Assembly: GCF_030694575.1 (NCBI RefSeq)
Contig: NZ_JAUYUS010000059.1
Location: 1-38,230 of the forward strand
DNA: 38,230 nt
From: Parvibaculum sp.
GTDB lineage: Bacteria; Pseudomonadota; Alphaproteobacteria; Parvibaculales; Parvibaculaceae
Direction of reading: 5' to 3'
Below are positions 4,888-24,803 of this stretch, piece after piece. The first letter of the stretch is position 1. Each line of letters opens with the position of its first letter. Below the pieces are notes generated by a model. That model had not been told where the DNA came from. It did not search any database and was given only the letters and a program-made list of their open reading frames with translations. The position numbers and the translations under genes were made by a program.

Positions 4888-5448
4888 TTAGCGGTTGATC
4901 TCGGTGATCTTCGTGCCCTCGATGCTGATGCCGGCCATCAGGCCGGACTGGTCGAAGATGAACGCATAGGCGTCCTCCTTCAGCGTCGAGGTCGAGAGGT
5001 TCTTGGCGACGCCCTCGTCGACCACGACGACCGTCGGGCCAACGCCGACTTCCCAGCCATGCGTCTCCTTCAGGTAGTCCACGGCCTTGTCGTTCATCAG
5101 GAAAACCGCATAGCCGTAGGACTGGGCGCCCGCCTGCAGGCCCCACGATCCGGTCACGGAATTGTAGTAGCGGTTCACGTTGCCGCCTTCCATCAGCACG
5201 CCTTCGCCATAGGCGCCGCCGAAGACGAGGCCGGCCTTCACGATGCTCGGGAAGACGAGGATGGCTTTCGCCTGCCCGGAAATGTCCTTGGCGACCGAGT
5301 TGGTCTTGTAGAGCTTGTCGAGTGCGTGCTGGGCCTCGGTGTTGAGATCTTCCGCCGTTGCGGCCTTCGCGCTCTCCAGGGTTCCGAATGAAACCAGCGC
5401 CGCGAATGCGACGAGAAATGCCATTAGGCTGCGCCTTGTGGTGGCCAT
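4888..5448 (-). CDS. Secreted SYLF (Ysc84-type) lipid-binding domain protein
   Basis: The protein has 186 residues. The signal peptide covers about 1-29, cleaved after ESAKA. It is followed by a SYLF domain with the family hallmarks AKAILVFPSIVKAGLVFGG, the conserved GEGVLM and the WGLQAGAQSYGYAVFLM core. In eukaryotic members this domain binds phosphoinositides. Bacterial members are periplasmic or lipid-associated proteins of unknown role that fill the whole mature chain, as here. The gene is monocistronic between its terminator and the oxidoreductase gene's 3' end, in the same orientation. A specific function cannot be given. Confidence 0.85.
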   Translation of the reverse strand: MATTRRSLMAFLVAFAALVSFGTLESAKAATAEDLNTEAQHALDKLYKTNSVAKDISGQAKAILVFPSIVKAGLVFGGAYGEGVLMEGGNVNRYYNSVTGSWGLQAGAQSYGYAVFLMNDKAVDYLKETHGWEVGVGPTVVVVDEGVAKNLSTSTLKEDAYAFIFDQSGLMAGISIEGTKITEINR

Positions 5449-5594
5449 GTTGTGTTGTCCCTGTGTAGTGGAAAATCGTTGAACCGGGCGTGCTCCTTGT
5501 GCTGAGCATTTGCCATGCTTCGCGTCGGAGCGTCCTGCCGCCCGCCATAACTACGAACCAGGGAAAGGAAGGTTCCGTAAGACGGGAAATAGAT

Positions 5595-6593
5595 TCAGAC
5601 CGTCAGCACGATCTTGCCGATATGGCTGCTTTTTTCCATAAGCGAATGAGCTTTCGCCGCTTCCGCCAGCGGGAAAACCGTGTCGATCTGCGGCTTTACG
5701 CGGCCGGCATCGAGCAGCGGCCACACTTTCGCCTTGAGCGCCGATGCCAGCGCCGCCTTCTCCTCGATGCTGCGCGGCCGCAAGGTCGACCCCGTCAGCG
5801 TCAGCCGTTTCAGCATCACGGGCATGAAGTTCACTTCCGCGACGGAGCCGTTCAGGAAGGCGATGGAAACGATCCGTCCGTCCGTTGCGGAGGCTTGAAT
5901 GTTGCGGGCGATGTAGTCGCCGCCGACCATGTCGAGGATCACGTCGACGCCGCGTCCCTCCGTCAGCCGCTTCGCTTCCTCGGCGAAATCCTTTTCACGG
6001 TAGTTGATCGCGGCATGCGCGCCGAGTTTTTCGCAGGCCGCGCATTTCTCTGCGGAGCCCGCCGTCGCGATCACGGTCGCGCCGAAAAGGTTCGCGAGCT
6101 GGATCGCCGTCGTGCCGATGCCGCTCGAACCGCCATGCACGAGAAACGTCTCGCCGGCCTTCAGCGCGCCGCGTTCGAACACGTTGGTCCAGACGGTGAA
6201 GAACGTTTCCGGCAGCGCCGCCGCTTCCGTCATCGTGAAACCGTGCGGAACGGGCAGGGCATGCGCCTCATGTGCGAGGCAGTATTCGGCATAGCCGCCA
6301 CCGCCGACGAGCGCGCAAACCTTGTCGCCGGTTTTCCACAGCGTTACGCCCGGTCCCGTCGCGACCACCTCGCCGGCGACCTCGAGGCCCGGCGTTTCGG
6401 GCGAGCCCGGCGGGGCCGGATAGAGGCCCATGCGCTGGATAGTGTCCGGCCGGTTCACGCCCGCCGCCGCGACCTTTATGAGGATTTCGCCATGGCCCGG
6501 TTCCGGCGTCGCGATCTCGCGCAATTCCAGCACGTCGGGGCCGCCCGGCTCGCGGATCGCAATCGCTTTCATGGTTCTGGGGAGCGTCGGCAT
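5595..6593 (-). CDS. NAD(P)H quinone oxidoreductase, PIG3 family (zinc-independent MDR)
   Basis: The protein has 332 residues and is a medium-chain dehydrogenase/reductase of the quinone-oxidoreductase type. The N-terminal GroES-like domain opens MKAIAIREPGGPDVLEL and contains the AAGVNRPDTIQRMGLYP signature. The Rossmann domain carries VHGGSSGIGTTAIQLA (about 145-160) for NAD(P)H. No catalytic zinc Cys/His set is visible, as expected for this subfamily. The start at 6593 is preferred because GAGG lies just upstream; ATG 6572, seven codons later, is the only other likely start. The longer frame extending to 6671 has no family similarity in its added part. It is divergent from the DUF1192 gene, with a 108-base shared upstream region. 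Role: reduction of quinones or enones, inferred from family. Confidence 0.9.
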   Translation of the reverse strand: MPTLPRTMKAIAIREPGGPDVLELREIATPEPGHGEILIKVAAAGVNRPDTIQRMGLYPAPPGSPETPGLEVAGEVVATGPGVTLWKTGDKVCALVGGGGYAEYCLAHEAHALPVPHGFTMTEAAALPETFFTVWTNVFERGALKAGETFLVHGGSSGIGTTAIQLANLFGATVIATAGSAEKCAACEKLGAHAAINYREKDFAEEAKRLTEGRGVDVILDMVGGDYIARNIQASATDGRIVSIAFLNGSVAEVNFMPVMLKRLTLTGSTLRPRSIEEKAALASALKAKVWPLLDAGRVKPQIDTVFPLAEAAKAHSLMEKSSHIGKIVLTV

Positions 6594-6701
6594 GTCGGCA
6601 CCTCGGAGCTTTGAAGGGGAGGCAGGCGCGGGCTGGATTGCAGGTCTAGCTTGCGGTCCCCAAACTGGCAACCGGGCGATACGACCGGAGGGAGAAGCAG
6701 G

Positions 6702-6902
6702 ATGGCCGACGACGATCTGGAACCGCGTAAGCGGCGGGGCGAGGCTCTCACGGCGCTGGCGAAAGAGGATCTGAGCCTTCTCGGCATCGAGGAGCTGGAA
6801 GACCGAATCACTTTGCTGGAGGCGGAGATTGACCGAATTCGGGACCAGCTCGCCCGCAAGCGCGGTTCACTTTCGGCCGCCGAGGCAGTGTTCAAAAAAT
6901 AG
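6702..6902 (+). CDS. DUF1192 family small coiled-coil protein
   Basis: The protein has 66 residues. MADDDLEPRKRR leads into an amphipathic coiled coil, LGIEELEDRITLLEAEIDRIRDQL, then a short tail ending VFKK. It matches the alphaproteobacterial DUF1192 family, whose role is unknown and which often lies next to rcdA, as here. ATG 6702 follows AGCAGG closely; a TTG 17 codons upstream has no support. Confidence 0.8.
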   Translation: MADDDLEPRKRRGEALTALAKEDLSLLGIEELEDRITLLEAEIDRIRDQLARKRGSLSAAEAVFKK

Positions 6903-6994
6903 TCAGACCGGCTAAGTCATTGGAAAATATTTTGTTTCTGTGACACCTGCCGGGTTCATCCGGAAAACATCTGCCGCGTCAAATTGCCACAAGA

Positions 6995-7009
6995 TTAACT
7001 TCCTGTTAG
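6995..7009 (+). promoter_or_regulatory. CtrA-like binding site before the small RNA and rcdA
   Basis: TTAA (6995-6998), seven bases, then TTAG (7006-7009) is one mismatch from the CtrA consensus TTAA-N7-TTAA. It lies just upstream of the structured, terminator-ended segment described next, and of rcdA, whose product helps degrade CtrA. Confidence 0.5.
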
Positions 7010-7029
7010 GAATGAAGGCGCTAGGGTGA

Positions 7030-7133
7030 CCTTGCGTAATCCAGTCTTCTGGATTTCTGAGTGGCTCCTATCCACTCTGTTTGACGCCTCCCTGTTAGAA
7101 CTTGAGCCGCGGGCATTCCCGCGGCTCTTTTTT
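7030..7133 (+). ncRNA. Probable trans-acting small RNA upstream of rcdA
   Basis: This non-coding stretch of about 104 bases holds three consecutive stems. They are AATCCAG-TCTT-CTGGATT (7038-7055), GAGTGG-CTCCTAT-CCACTC (7059-7077) and a strong terminator (7104-7133). The loop CUCCU and the open CCUCCC (7087-7092) resemble the anti-Shine-Dalgarno motifs exposed in alphaproteobacterial mmgR/alpha-r14 type small RNAs. The 5' end is set only approximately, from the CtrA-like box and the first stem. I cannot assign it to a named family with certainty. Confidence 0.55.
7104..7133 (+). terminator. Terminator of the small RNA
   Basis: GAGCCGCGGG-CATT-CCCGCGGCTC is followed by six Ts. No coding gene ends just upstream, since the DUF1192 gene stops 200 bases earlier. 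The terminator therefore implies an RNA gene or a very long 3' UTR. Confidence 0.9.
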
Positions 7134-7262
7134 GTTGTTCCTTACCCATCGTCCCGTGTCTGCCCGTTTTCGTGGCACGGATATTGATCCTCAGGACCCT
7201 GTATGTGCCGGTATGGGGCAGAAGCCCGCGGCAGGATCAAGATCGGGATGGGGATCGCGGGA

Positions 7263-7853
7263 ATGAGCGTTCACGAAATCGAGAATGGCGAAGAAGTCGC
7301 CTTCGCCGGCGCCGAGTGCGTCACCTTGTCGGAATTCATGGCGTCGGGGCTGTTTCAGCGCACCTACAACGAAGGCATGCGTCTGGTCGAGGAAACCTCG
7401 GCCTATCTGGACGGGCCGGGCCGGCAGGCCGCCCGTTCGCTGCCGCGCGACGCTTCGCTCGCCTATGCGGGCGAGAGCATGCGCCTTACCACCCGGTTGA
7501 TGCAGGTGGCCTCGTGGCTCCTGGTCCGCAAGGCGGTACACGAAGGCGAGATCACGCCGGAAGAGGCGAATTCGGAGAAGTATCGTCTCGCCACCAAGGA
7601 AATCGGCCGCCAGCCGCGCTTTGATGGTGTCGAGGCCCTGCCGTCCGAGTTGCAGGAGCTGATCCGGCGGTCCGAGCGGCTTTACGCCCGCGTCGAGCGT
7701 CTCGATGCCCGCCTGCGCGAAACGGCGGAGCCCGTGACGCAGAACCATCCGCTGGCCGAGCAGTTGCGCCGTGTGGAGGATTTCTTCCGCGAAAACCTTG
7801 CCATCGGTCTGCCGCGCCGCGAGTTCGGGCGCCGCAGGAACCGGCCCGATTGA
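7263..7853 (+). CDS. rcdA: RcdA-like protein (DUF1465), CtrA-proteolysis adaptor
   Basis: The protein has 196 residues and matches the DUF1465/RcdA family: SEFMASGLFQRTYNEGMRLVEETSAYLDG, then a long helix beginning RLTTRLMQVASWLLVRKAVHEG. In Caulobacter, RcdA works with CpdR and PopA to bring CtrA and other substrates to ClpXP. The protein is all-helical and cytoplasmic. The last third (SERLYARVERLDARLRETAEP and beyond) is charged and likely disordered, matching the substrate-binding tail of RcdA. ATG 7263 follows GGGG at a workable distance; ATG 7248, five codons earlier, is equally possible. The neighbourhood DUF1192 - rcdA - rpmE is recurrent in alphaproteobacteria. Confidence 0.85.
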   Translation: MSVHEIENGEEVAFAGAECVTLSEFMASGLFQRTYNEGMRLVEETSAYLDGPGRQAARSLPRDASLAYAGESMRLTTRLMQVASWLLVRKAVHEGEITPEEANSEKYRLATKEIGRQPRFDGVEALPSELQELIRRSERLYARVERLDARLRETAEPVTQNHPLAEQLRRVEDFFRENLAIGLPRREFGRRRNRPD

Positions 7854-7870
7854 AGCAGTCAGGACAACAA

Positions 7871-7896
7871 AAAAGCCCCGCGAAAGCGGGGCTTTT
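7871..7896. terminator. Bidirectional terminator between rcdA and rpmE
   Basis: AAAAGCCCCGC-GAAA-GCGGGGCTTTT is a perfect stem with an A run on one side and a T run on the other. It serves the convergent rcdA (plus) and rpmE (minus) genes. Confidence 0.92.
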
Positions 7897-7918
7897 CGTA
7901 TCTCGAGAGGCTTGCGGC

Positions 7919-8140
7919 CTAGCTGCCGATAAAGCCGAACTTCTTCTTGAAGCGGCTCACGCGGCCGCCGCGATCGAGGATCTGCTGGCCGCCGCCCGTC
8001 CACGCCGGATGCGTCGTCGGGTCGATGTCGAGCACCAGCGTGTCGCCTTCCGAGCCATAGGTCGAACGGGTCCTGTAGGTGGACCCATCGTTCATCTGAA
8101 CGGTGATGAAGTGGTAGTCCGGATGAATGTCTTTCTTCAT
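7919..8140 (-). CDS. rpmE: 50S ribosomal protein L31
   Basis: The protein has 73 residues and starts [20 protein letters not shown], the L31 signature. The zinc-binding CxxC pairs of the C+ form are absent, so this is a C-minus (zinc-independent) type A L31, common in alphaproteobacteria. It carries the usual basic C-terminal part, [11 protein letters not shown]. The gene is single and flanked by its own promoter and the shared terminator. Confidence 0.97.
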
Positions 8141-8222
8141 GGCTCGCGGCTTCCTGAAGCGGTGTCTCTAAATGGCGCGCGAAGGCCCCTTCGGTGAAGG
8201 TGCCGCGCTGCCGGAATGGGGG

Positions 8223-8251
8223 CTTATAGCGAAGCCGGGAGGCTGTTGCAA
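8223..8251 (-). promoter_or_regulatory. Probable sigma-70 promoter of rpmE
   Basis: On the minus strand, TTGCAA (8251-8246) and TATAAG (8228-8223) are separated by exactly 17 bases. They lie about 80 bases before the rpmE start codon. Confidence 0.6.
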
Positions 8252-8332
8252 GGCCAGTCTCGCCAGTCATTCCCTTTGCTCAAGCTGGCGCTTTTGTGCG
8301 GAGATGCCGCAGTTTTTCGCGGCTTCCCGGCG

Positions 8333-8362
8333 TTGCTCAGGCAAGGCGGGGATTGCTATACC
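8333..8362 (+). promoter_or_regulatory. Possible promoter of the ABC exporter gene
   Basis: TTGCTC (8333-8338) and TATACC (8357-8362) have an 18-base spacer, 80 bases before the chosen start codon. The 301-base divergent gap 8141-8441 holds this, the rpmE promoter and nothing else I can identify. Confidence 0.4.
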
Positions 8363-8441
8363 AGCCGCGCGCCGAAATTATGCCCGGGCGCCCTTAAAGG
8401 GATTAGGGTGCCCCTCCCGAAGCACGAACCGGCGAAAGCGC

Positions 8442-10295
8442 ATGAGCGACATATCCAATCCGGTCGTCGAGGCCATCGAGGAAGAAGCGCAACGGCGCAA
8501 GCCCGCCAAGGCGGTGCGGCCCATTCTGCGGCTCATGCCGTTCCTTGCCCGGTACCGGGTCATGGTCGGGCTCGCCTTCGTCTCGCTCGTCTTCGCGACG
8601 CTCGCGACGCTCGCCATACCGATGGCGGGCCGGCGTCTGATCGACAACGGATTCAGCCGCGAGAATGCGGTCTTCATCGACCAGTATTTCATCGCTCTCG
8701 TTCTCGTCGCTCTCATTCTCGGCGTCGCCAGCGCTTCGCGGTTTTTCTTCGTAAGCTGGATCGGCGAACGCGTCGTCGCCGACATCCGCCGAGCGGTCTA
8801 CGAGCATGTGCTGCAGCTCTCGCCGGCGTTTTTCGAGCTAACGCGAACGGGCGAAGTCCTGTCGCGCCTTACGGCAGACACGACGCTCATCAAGACGGTC
8901 GTCGGCTCCTCCGCCTCGATCGCGTTGCGCAATATCTTCCTTTTCTTCGGCGCGGCGGCGATGATGGCGGCGACGAGCCCCTATCTTTCCAGTCTCGTGC
9001 TTCTCGCCATTCCCGCCATTCTCCTGCCGCTCATCGTGTTCGGGCGCTGGGTGCGGCGCCTGTCGCGCTCCGCGCAGGACCGGCTCGCGGATACGAGCGC
9101 CTTCGGCACGGAGAGCCTCAACGCCATCCAGATCGTGCAGGCCTTCACGCATGAGCCGATCGACAACGAGCGCTTCGGCAGCACGGTCGAGCGCGCGTTC
9201 GAGACGGCGCGCTCGCGCATCATGGCGCGGGCGGTGCTGACGGCGCTGATATTCTTCTTCGGCCTCTCCAGCGTCGTCGGCGTCCTGTGGGTGGGCGCGA
9301 ACGCGGTTCTCTCCGACACGATGACGGGCGGTGAGCTTCTCGAATTTATCCTCTATGCGGTTTTCGCGGCATCGGCGCTCGCGGCATTGTCGGAAATCTG
9401 GGGTGATATCCAGATGGCGGCGGGCGCGACCGAACGGTTGATGGAGCTTCTCGACGTCGAACCTGAAATCGCCGCGCCGGCGAACCCCGTCATGTTGCCC
9501 GAACCGCAGGGCGAGATCGCCTTCGACAACGTCACTTTCGCCTATCCGACGCGGCCGCGCGTCTCGGCGCTGCATGGTTTTTCGCTTACTGTCGCGCCAG
9601 GCGAAACGGTCGCGCTTGTCGGACCTTCGGGCGCGGGCAAGAGCACCGTCTTTCAGCTTCTCCTCCGTTTCTACGATCCCCAGTCGGGCCATGTCCGGCT
9701 CGACGGTGTTGATGTGCGCCATGCGGACCCGCGCGATGTGCGCGGCCGTCTCGCCGTCGTGCCGCAGGAGACGGTCGTATTCGGTGCGAGCGTGGCGGAG
9801 AACATCCGCTATGGCCGGCCGGACGCCAGCGACGACGAAGTTCGCGCGGCGGCGCGGGCGGCGCGGATCGACGATTTCATCATGCAATTGCCGCAAGGTT
9901 ACGAAACCCAGGTGGGCGAGCGGGGCGTCACGCTCTCCGGCGGTCAGCGGCAGCGCATCGCCATCGCCCGCGCCATCCTCCGCAATTCGCCGGTGCTGCT
10001 TCTCGACGAGGCGACCAGTGCGCTCGATGCCGAGAGCGAAACGCTGGTGCAGCAGGCGCTCGAAGGCCTCATGGAAGGCCGGACCACGCTCGTCATCGCG
10101 CACAGGCTCGCCACGGTTCTGAAGGCCGACCGCATCGTCGTGATGGAGGAGGGGCGTGTCGTCGCCTCCGGCACACATGACGAACTTGTGAGGCAGGGGG
10201 GCCTCTATGCGCGTCTCGCGCGGCTGCAATTCGCGGCCAACCGCGATATTGTCGAGGCGGCGGATGCGCGCACCAATGCCGGTATCGGCAGCTAA
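8442..10295 (+). CDS. ABC exporter, fused permease and ATPase (MsbA/LmrA-like half transporter)
   Basis: The protein has 617 residues. The transmembrane domain (about 30-340) has six predicted spans, starting [21 protein letters not shown]. The nucleotide-binding domain carries Walker [10 protein letters not shown] at residue 394, signature [14 protein letters not shown] at 498 and Walker [13 protein letters not shown] with Asp522 and catalytic Glu523. A downstream IAHRL contains the switch His. It is a type IV half exporter that should act as a homodimer. The substrate is unknown; lipid or drug export is typical. The start at ATG 8442 ([10 protein letters not shown]) is chosen because the longer frame back to 8172 runs over the promoter region and lacks family similarity. 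Confidence 0.9.
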
Positions 10296-24615: not shown

Positions 24616-24772
24616 ACGGGTTCTGCCCGGCGCGTTAGGAACACATACTCTCGGGGCCTTACGGTCCTCAAGGGAGCTGTCCCTGAGGGAGACTGTGGTC
24701 TTCTTCATACGGCGCCCACCTACGTTAGTAGGTCTCCGGGGAACGAAGTTCCGACGGCCGTGGCGGACCCAC
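24616..24772 (+). ncRNA. ssrS: 6S RNA
   Basis: The gene lies between zapA and the 5-formyl-THF cyclo-ligase gene, the conserved 6S site. The ends pair: GGGTTC-T-GCC (24618-24627) with GGCGGACCC (24762-24770), extended by CGGC/GCCG. The distal arm ends in CCTCAAGGGA-GCTG-TCCCTGAGG (about 24669-24691), and an asymmetric open region lies between, as in 6S RNA. Small 3'-side hairpins CCTAC-GTTA-GTAGG and GAAC-GAA-GTTC are also present. 6S RNA mimics an open promoter and binds sigma-70 RNA polymerase in stationary phase. Ends are accurate to about five bases. Confidence 0.88.
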
Positions 24773-24803
24773 TTGTTCTTCCTCCCCTTTCCGGTTGTGC
24801 CGC

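Follow-up and report, generated by a model that had tools for sequence, protein, structure and literature searches.

Described Small RNAs Closest to the Locus

The CtrA regulon is described mostly as protein genes. The closest described RNA, BjrC1505 (Rfam RF02356), is already catalogued as a family of alphaproteobacterial small RNAs. A literature search, mostly of papers outside subscription, found no functional study of BjrC1505 and no paper linking it to CtrA or rcdA. It is named in one paper found, and there in a table only. Neither CtrA control nor a link to rcdA appears in the Rfam description of RF02356 or in the passage that names BjrC1505.

Other described RNAs resemble BjrC1505 in part or act on the cell cycle. 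The families mmgR (RF00519), SorX (RF02784), and SorY (RF02651) have a 3' end composed of CUCCCUGUU and a terminator. CcnA of Caulobacter crescentus is a small RNA thought to be activated by CtrA, whose C-rich loop meets G-rich leaders; it acts via CCCC on GGGG, and its gene is at the replication origin (PMC8959179). EcpR1 and GspR of Sinorhizobium meliloti are trans-acting RNAs on cell-cycle mRNAs (PMC4414408, PMC5928217).

The DNA analyzed here is a stretch of 38,230 nucleotides from Parvibaculum sp. (contig NZ_JAUYUS010000059.1), which is called the window as a whole. Of 17 relatives identified through RcdA, most carry the name Parvibaculum. Positions 6988-7134 of the window match RF02356 over the full length of the model (1-140) at 79.2 bits, against a cut-off of 50 (E 1.9e-13). 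This match is not due to chance. The RNA in the window has the same order of stems, core, and terminator as BjrC1505. It shares the 3' end with mmgR, SorX, and SorY, but these cross-matches are weak and below the cut-offs (19 vs. 46.6 bits for SorX and 22.6 vs. 111 bits for SorY). The sequence-only reading of this DNA had proposed a search against Rfam families such as mmgR and ar14; mmgR reached 22.2 bits against a cut-off of 41, and the family over its cut-off was BjrC1505.

The window RNA differs in location from the RNAs of the cell-cycle circuit. Unlike CcnA, it lies between a DUF1192 gene and rcdA. EcpR1 is encoded downstream of divK-pleD and uses the loop UCCGCCGCAUCU (PMC4414408); this loop is absent from 7034-7133, and the neighbors differ. 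GspR lies between SMc03844 and SMc03845 (PMC5928217) and is a different gene.

Organization of the Locus in Parvibaculum

Family membership, predicted structure, conservation, promoter architecture, and linkage to rcdA are established from the comparisons below. We read 6995-7133 as an autonomous gene for a trans-acting small RNA of the BjrC1505 family, which would be activated by CtrA and repress mRNAs through pairing with Shine-Dalgarno (SD) sequences; the probability of this reading is roughly 0.75. The features are as follows, all on the forward strand.

6702..6902 (+): DUF1192 gene (PF06698, Pfam E 6e-22), the upstream neighbor of the RNA
6995..7009 (+): CtrA-type box TTAACTTCCTGTTAG, with 7 of the 8 consensus letters of TTAA-N7-TTAA
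7022..7027 (+): -10 element TAGGGT (TANNNT); over 7020-7039, the rounded identity of 21 genus sequences to the window is 1.0
7034..7133 (+): small RNA of the BjrC1505 family, ~100 nt; start placed from the -10 element, end from the terminator
7038..7055 (+): stem-loop 1, variable in sequence, from fold prediction and alignment
7059..7077 (+): stem-loop 2, GAGUGG-CUCCUAU-CCACUC; 3 of its 6 pairs are changed on both sides across homologues
7080..7099 (+): core with CCUCCC (7087-7092) and near-invariant GACGCCUCCCUGUU; it folds weakly in the window (stem-loop 3) and is open in other lineages
7104..7133 (+): intrinsic terminator, with the hairpin at 7104-7127 and the T run at 7128-7133
7263..7853 (+): rcdA (DUF1465, PF07323, Pfam E 3.8e-58); the start codon is assumed at 7263, and 7203 is also possible

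The covariance-model search found one BjrC1505 copy in the Parvibaculum genome. Another RNA gene in the window is 6S RNA (RF00013) at 24617-24773 (+), with 70.3 bits against a cut-off of 46.4.

Predicted Structure and Covariation

The fold of 7031-7134 is predicted at -40.9 kcal/mol (z -6.35), and none of 200 shuffles was as good; for 6995-7133, the z score is -4.54. Eight terminator-like sites were observed in 5000-9500 vs. 4.7 in shuffles. Among the eight, the terminator hairpin of the RNA has the most pairs (10 pairs, 9 of them G-C). The sequence-only reading had described a terminator ending a segment with two further stems, with CUCCU in a loop and CCUCCC in an open stretch. The fold agrees with it: the stems are at 7038-7055 and 7059-7077, CUCCU sits in the 7-nt loop (7065-7071) of stem-loop 2, and CCUCCC is unpaired in the hexaloop of the weak third stem. 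Stem 3 is absent from the predicted folds of Sinorhizobium, Shinella, and two other loci (L040 and L050), and the CUCCC counterpart in Sinorhizobium and Shinella is predicted to be simply open.

The alignment comprised 29 of 55 loci, of which 20 were kept for the model and 9 were omitted, being either near-duplicates or poorly aligned at stem 2. In the 20-sequence alignment, 92.5% of the cells pair, against 35-57% in slid controls, and double-change cells number 20 against a shuffled mean of 9.1. Both the paired cells and the double-change cells exceed the shuffles. Six pairs have double changes and 15 pair types occur; neither count goes beyond the shuffles (50/500 and 285/500, respectively). 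Stem 3 is nearly invariant, and thus the covariation neither supports nor rejects it. Of the two motifs that had been proposed as anti-Shine-Dalgarno motifs, CCUCCC is near-invariant, which keeps that role plausible, but the CUCCU loop is retained in some families only.

The possibility of a coding RNA is ruled out. The lengths of the matches in the genus (143-147 nt) differ by non-multiples of three, and closed frames have at most 22 codons.

CtrA-Type Promoter across Families

The CtrA consensus is TTAA-N7-TTAA (PMC4287350), and the box of the window matches 7 of its 8 letters. Conservation of this box was analyzed with one representative per family in 21 families, 14 from the class-wide search with the Rfam model and 7 from matches to R1, our own covariance model of stem 2, core, and terminator. 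The latter (f126, f156, f155, f37, f27, f124, and f138) are matches upstream of rcdA that were picked before box inspection. In f37, f27, f124, and f138, the R1 score is only 35-38 bits, and the identity of the RNA thus rests on place and strand.

TTAA-N7-TTAA scores 7-8 of 8 in 20 of the 21 families, and one family is without it. In 400 dinucleotide shuffles, the mean was 2.1 families and the maximum 6. Among other controls, a span further upstream gave 0/21, other half-site orders gave at most 7, and other spacers gave no more than 9. The distance from box start to core is 72-94 nt, and in 18 of the 21 families it is 82-94 nt. When all 55 loci are considered, 47 score 7-8 of 8, with the box mostly 80-92 nt ahead of the core. 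The best box of the remaining eight, all from the window's own family, scores 6 of 8, and two of these are off the usual place. Other members of f1 and f126 also score only 6 of 8.

The spacing to the -10 element is also kept. Counted from the box, 16 of the 21 families have TA at +12 and 14 have T at +17, which corresponds to TANNNT; the TA of the window is at +13. From this fixed spacing, the box would span about -38 to -24, the usual place of a -35 element. This architecture strongly suggests that the RNA is under the control of CtrA. The sequence-only reading had postulated a small RNA with a CtrA-type promoter, and the comparison of box, -10 element, and conservation supports it well. The span it gave to the RNA is to be shortened, since 6995 is the start of the box and the RNA probably starts near 7034.

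Five families were first outside the box test. Two of them, f86 and f34, have the RNA core and a 7-of-8 box. The other three (f31, f39, and f68) look like false matches; they have no RNA core, and one is a tRNA-like stretch.

Distribution of the RNA

RF02356 matches 32 of the 37 genomes of the window's family at E <= 0.001, and 31 are over the cut-off; the five genomes without a match are 57-83% complete. The class sample of 385 genomes gives matches at E <= 0.001 in 40 and scores over the Rfam cut-off in 17. At least 4 of the 43 class matches look false (G066, G103, G373, and G414, 30.6-31.7 bits). That in G414 (f113) is a weak match without a box and looks like mmgR.

R1 matches 185 of the 385 class genomes at E <= 0.01. 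R1 matches around 30-38 bits are not trusted alone, because mmgR, SorX, and SorY share the 3' end. Some genomes have more than one copy. G410 has two tandem copies before rcdA (L050, 1301-1443 and 1501-1647), about 200 nt apart. G244 has extra copies on contigs C10 and C15. In G037, there are two unlinked copies (contigs C124 and C110), and no PF07323 gene was detected in this genome.

Among the named records, Methylobacterium bullatum is just over the Rfam cut-off (50.5 bits). The Sphingomonas record has no match to the RNA with either the Rfam model or R1.

Candidate Targets and Comparison with CcnA

The near-invariant CCUCCCUGUU and the terminator with a long U run would suit an RNA acting in trans by masking ribosome-binding sites. 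The complement of the 14-nt core, with up to 3 mismatches, was found in its own genome at 258 forward and 227 reverse sites, compared with 157 and 148 for the control. The sole perfect site is the RNA gene itself. In 8 of 30 sites read in context, the start codon of a frame of at least 60 codons is just downstream. The best site matches 13 of the 14 letters and spans the SD of a gene for an HlyD-type lipoprotein (L218; G000:C62:63863-63876, - strand), and 11-13 of the 14 letters are kept in 8 of 11 relatives compared. This site overlaps the end of the preceding coding gene, which may explain its conservation, and so the lipoprotein gene may be considered a weak candidate only.

The RNA might work as CcnA does, activated by CtrA and acting directly on the leaders of ctrA and gcrA. 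The two RNAs share their promoter logic and an unpaired C-rich stretch, which CcnA uses as CCCC on GGGG (PMC8959179), and there are G-rich SDs in the Parvibaculum ctrA and gcrA leaders. However, the duplex energies with the CCUCCC region are unremarkable: among 164 background starts, taken from the window and from loci of that genome, 51% pair as well as the ctrA leader and 50% as well as the gcrA leader. CcnA is, in addition, a different gene. Direct action of this kind is unlikely. Against the same 164 starts, the rcdA leader likewise shows no better duplex energy. The RNA had been proposed to form a compact feedback unit with the neighboring gene for a CtrA-degradation adaptor; position and promoter logic speak for this idea, but none of the three leaders (ctrA, gcrA, and rcdA) is predicted to pair better than background, and feedback of the RNA on CtrA or RcdA is not supported.

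Linkage to rcdA and Ownership of the CtrA Box

Adjacency of the RNA to rcdA is a real linkage, but it is not obligatory. In the window's family, rcdA is beside the RNA in 30 of 30 loci, and DUF1192 is found in 29; the remaining locus is truncated where its contig ends. In the other 25 loci, rcdA is within the fetched stretch in 13. Among the 43 Rfam-level matches, 21 have their end no more than 600 nt upstream of the rcdA match, always on the rcdA strand, and three more are within 5 kb on the same strand. Of the remaining 19, three (all in f41) are 42-46 kb away, 10 are on a different contig, and six come from genomes in which PF07323 has no match. The adjacency pointed out in the sequence-only reading is therefore common, but rcdA is not a necessary neighbor.

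The reverse view is given by 113 rcdA regions from 140 class genomes with PF07323. R1 at a threshold of 26.9 bits or above finds the RNA in 27 of them, always on the rcdA strand. A 28th match (L155) was dropped, as it is mmgR. This mmgR copy (245-318 in L155 of G130; 57 bits, cut-off 41), in a genome of another bacterial family, also precedes rcdA and has its orientation. R1 matches of 22.9 bits or less were left out; one of these, L103, is the truncated end of a copy found in the class-wide Rfam search. In the other 86 regions, no RNA was found by R1 or by a more permissive scan combining box, CUCCC, and terminator, whose sensitivity is limited: it recovers 3 of 4 named RNA-bearing records (Sinorhizobium twice and Shinella) and misses Methylobacterium. 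Among the 27 genomes outside the survey, the RNA adjoins rcdA in G148, G339, G244, and G410.

Published studies assign CtrA control to rcdA itself in many species (PMC2877005, PMC4287350). The terms "small RNA" and "non-coding" are absent from the text of the comparative CtrA study (PMC2877005). Caulobacter start sites with a CtrA motif include rcdA and six unnamed non-coding RNAs (PMC4287350). In Hyphomonas neptunium, rcdA is reported not to be regulated by CtrA (PMC7200025).

The published control would be accounted for if the box were the rcdA promoter and the RNA an attenuated rcdA leader, with transcription mostly ending at the terminator and read-through past it giving rcdA mRNA. Where the RNA precedes rcdA, 24 of 27 loci lack a further 7-of-8 box in the interval from the terminator to rcdA, and rcdA may depend there on the box of the RNA. 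It is also consistent with this explanation that rcdA can carry a box without the RNA, as 25 of the 86 regions do within 700 nt, part of these boxes lying in AT-rich stretches. However, box, RNA, and terminator are kept away from rcdA in three families: in f41 the distance is 42-46 kb, and in f67 and f80 rcdA is not within 1.5 kb and is on another contig. Among Rhizobiaceae, two Sinorhizobium records and Shinella have a perfect box for the RNA and another perfect one directly before rcdA (L281 2839-2853, L283 2918-2932, and L285 2839-2853), and Methylobacterium has a separate 7-of-8 box there. In Parvibaculum, rcdA is preceded by a separate conserved promoter-like block, unlike the CtrA box. 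An attenuated leader is thus quite improbable.

Limits of the Conserved Block

Conservation was analyzed in 21 of 22 loci of the genus; L028, at a contig end, was excluded. Averaged over these sequences, identity to the window amounts to 0.44 in 6903-6979, 0.864 in 6984-7027, 0.947 in 7034-7133, and 0.489 in 7140-7250. The conserved block thus extends from the CtrA box through the terminator. One of the 21 sequences, L030, has the -10 variant TAGGAT. Since the 5' end of the Rfam match is upstream of the box, the first part of the RF02356 model is probably promoter DNA (box and -10 element), and the RNA would begin later.

Within 7140-7250, there is a second conserved patch at 7170-7189, with identity of 0.76-0.84. 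It contains TGGCACG-GATA-TTGAT (7173-7188, +), located before rcdA and kept in most of the 21 sequences. This block resembles a sigma-54 promoter, with the usual GC at -12 missing.

The RNA could also be the processed 3' UTR of the DUF1192 mRNA, given the same strand, the conserved neighborhood, and a distance of about 90 nt from the DUF1192 stop to the box, but this is very improbable, as the stretch from the stop to the promoter is not conserved (0.44) whereas the box and -10 element are (0.864), and f41 and f67 have the RNA with no DUF1192 gene detected by tblastn within the fetched 1.5 kb.

The Locus in Sinorhizobium meliloti

In the record of S. meliloti Ak57, the order is DUF1192, a 362-nt gap, DUF1465, rpmE, and an ABC transporter, the same as in the window. 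The gap contains TTAACCGCAAATTAA, the CUCCCUGUU core, and a terminator, with 94 nt from the box start to the CUCCC match. The scores are low: 27.2 bits with the Rfam model (cut-off 50, E 0.23) and 21.8 bits with R1 (E 0.001). It is likely that the gap holds a diverged copy of the RNA, homology being indicated by its position, box, and core and not by the scores. The record, CP090106.1, is labeled pSymB (strain Ak57); it is 3.7 Mb long, carries rcdA, rpmE, and other chromosomal-type genes, and is possibly a mislabeled chromosome.

In S. meliloti, ChIP-Seq detected CtrA binding before rcdA, yet CtrA depletion leaves rcdA expression unchanged (PMC4433202). An RNA with a perfect box in this gap would explain the puzzle in part. 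The explanation is partial because a second perfect box lies nearer rcdA.

Proposed Action and Implications

In the proposed mechanism, phosphorylated CtrA would bind the box (about -38 to -24), which would substitute for a -35 element. Together with RNA polymerase at the TANNNT -10 element, it would switch on an RNA of about 100 nt, which would end at its own terminator, before rcdA. The unpaired CCUCCCUGUU, joined in the window's lineage by the CUCCUAU loop, would pair with G-rich ribosome-binding sites. The RNA would repress the translation of a set of mRNAs as long as CtrA is active, presumably by an Hfq-type action.

What is new here is the comparative result, namely the CtrA site before the RNA across families; the RNA family had been catalogued before. 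On balance, we favor the view that this RNA, shared by more than 20 alphaproteobacterial families and often encoded beside rcdA, is activated by CtrA and is an unrecognized conserved output of CtrA that represses mRNAs in the CtrA-active phase, and that at many rcdA loci the upstream CtrA site serves the RNA and not rcdA. S. meliloti makes the question of CtrA and the RNA directly testable, and the RNA bears on the rcdA puzzle published for that species (PMC4433202).

The pattern of a CtrA site plus the RNA suggests an overlooked part of the cell-cycle circuit. With a CtrA-type promoter before it in 20 of 21 families, the RNA would be a widely kept output of CtrA, and it would add a post-transcriptional arm to this circuit.
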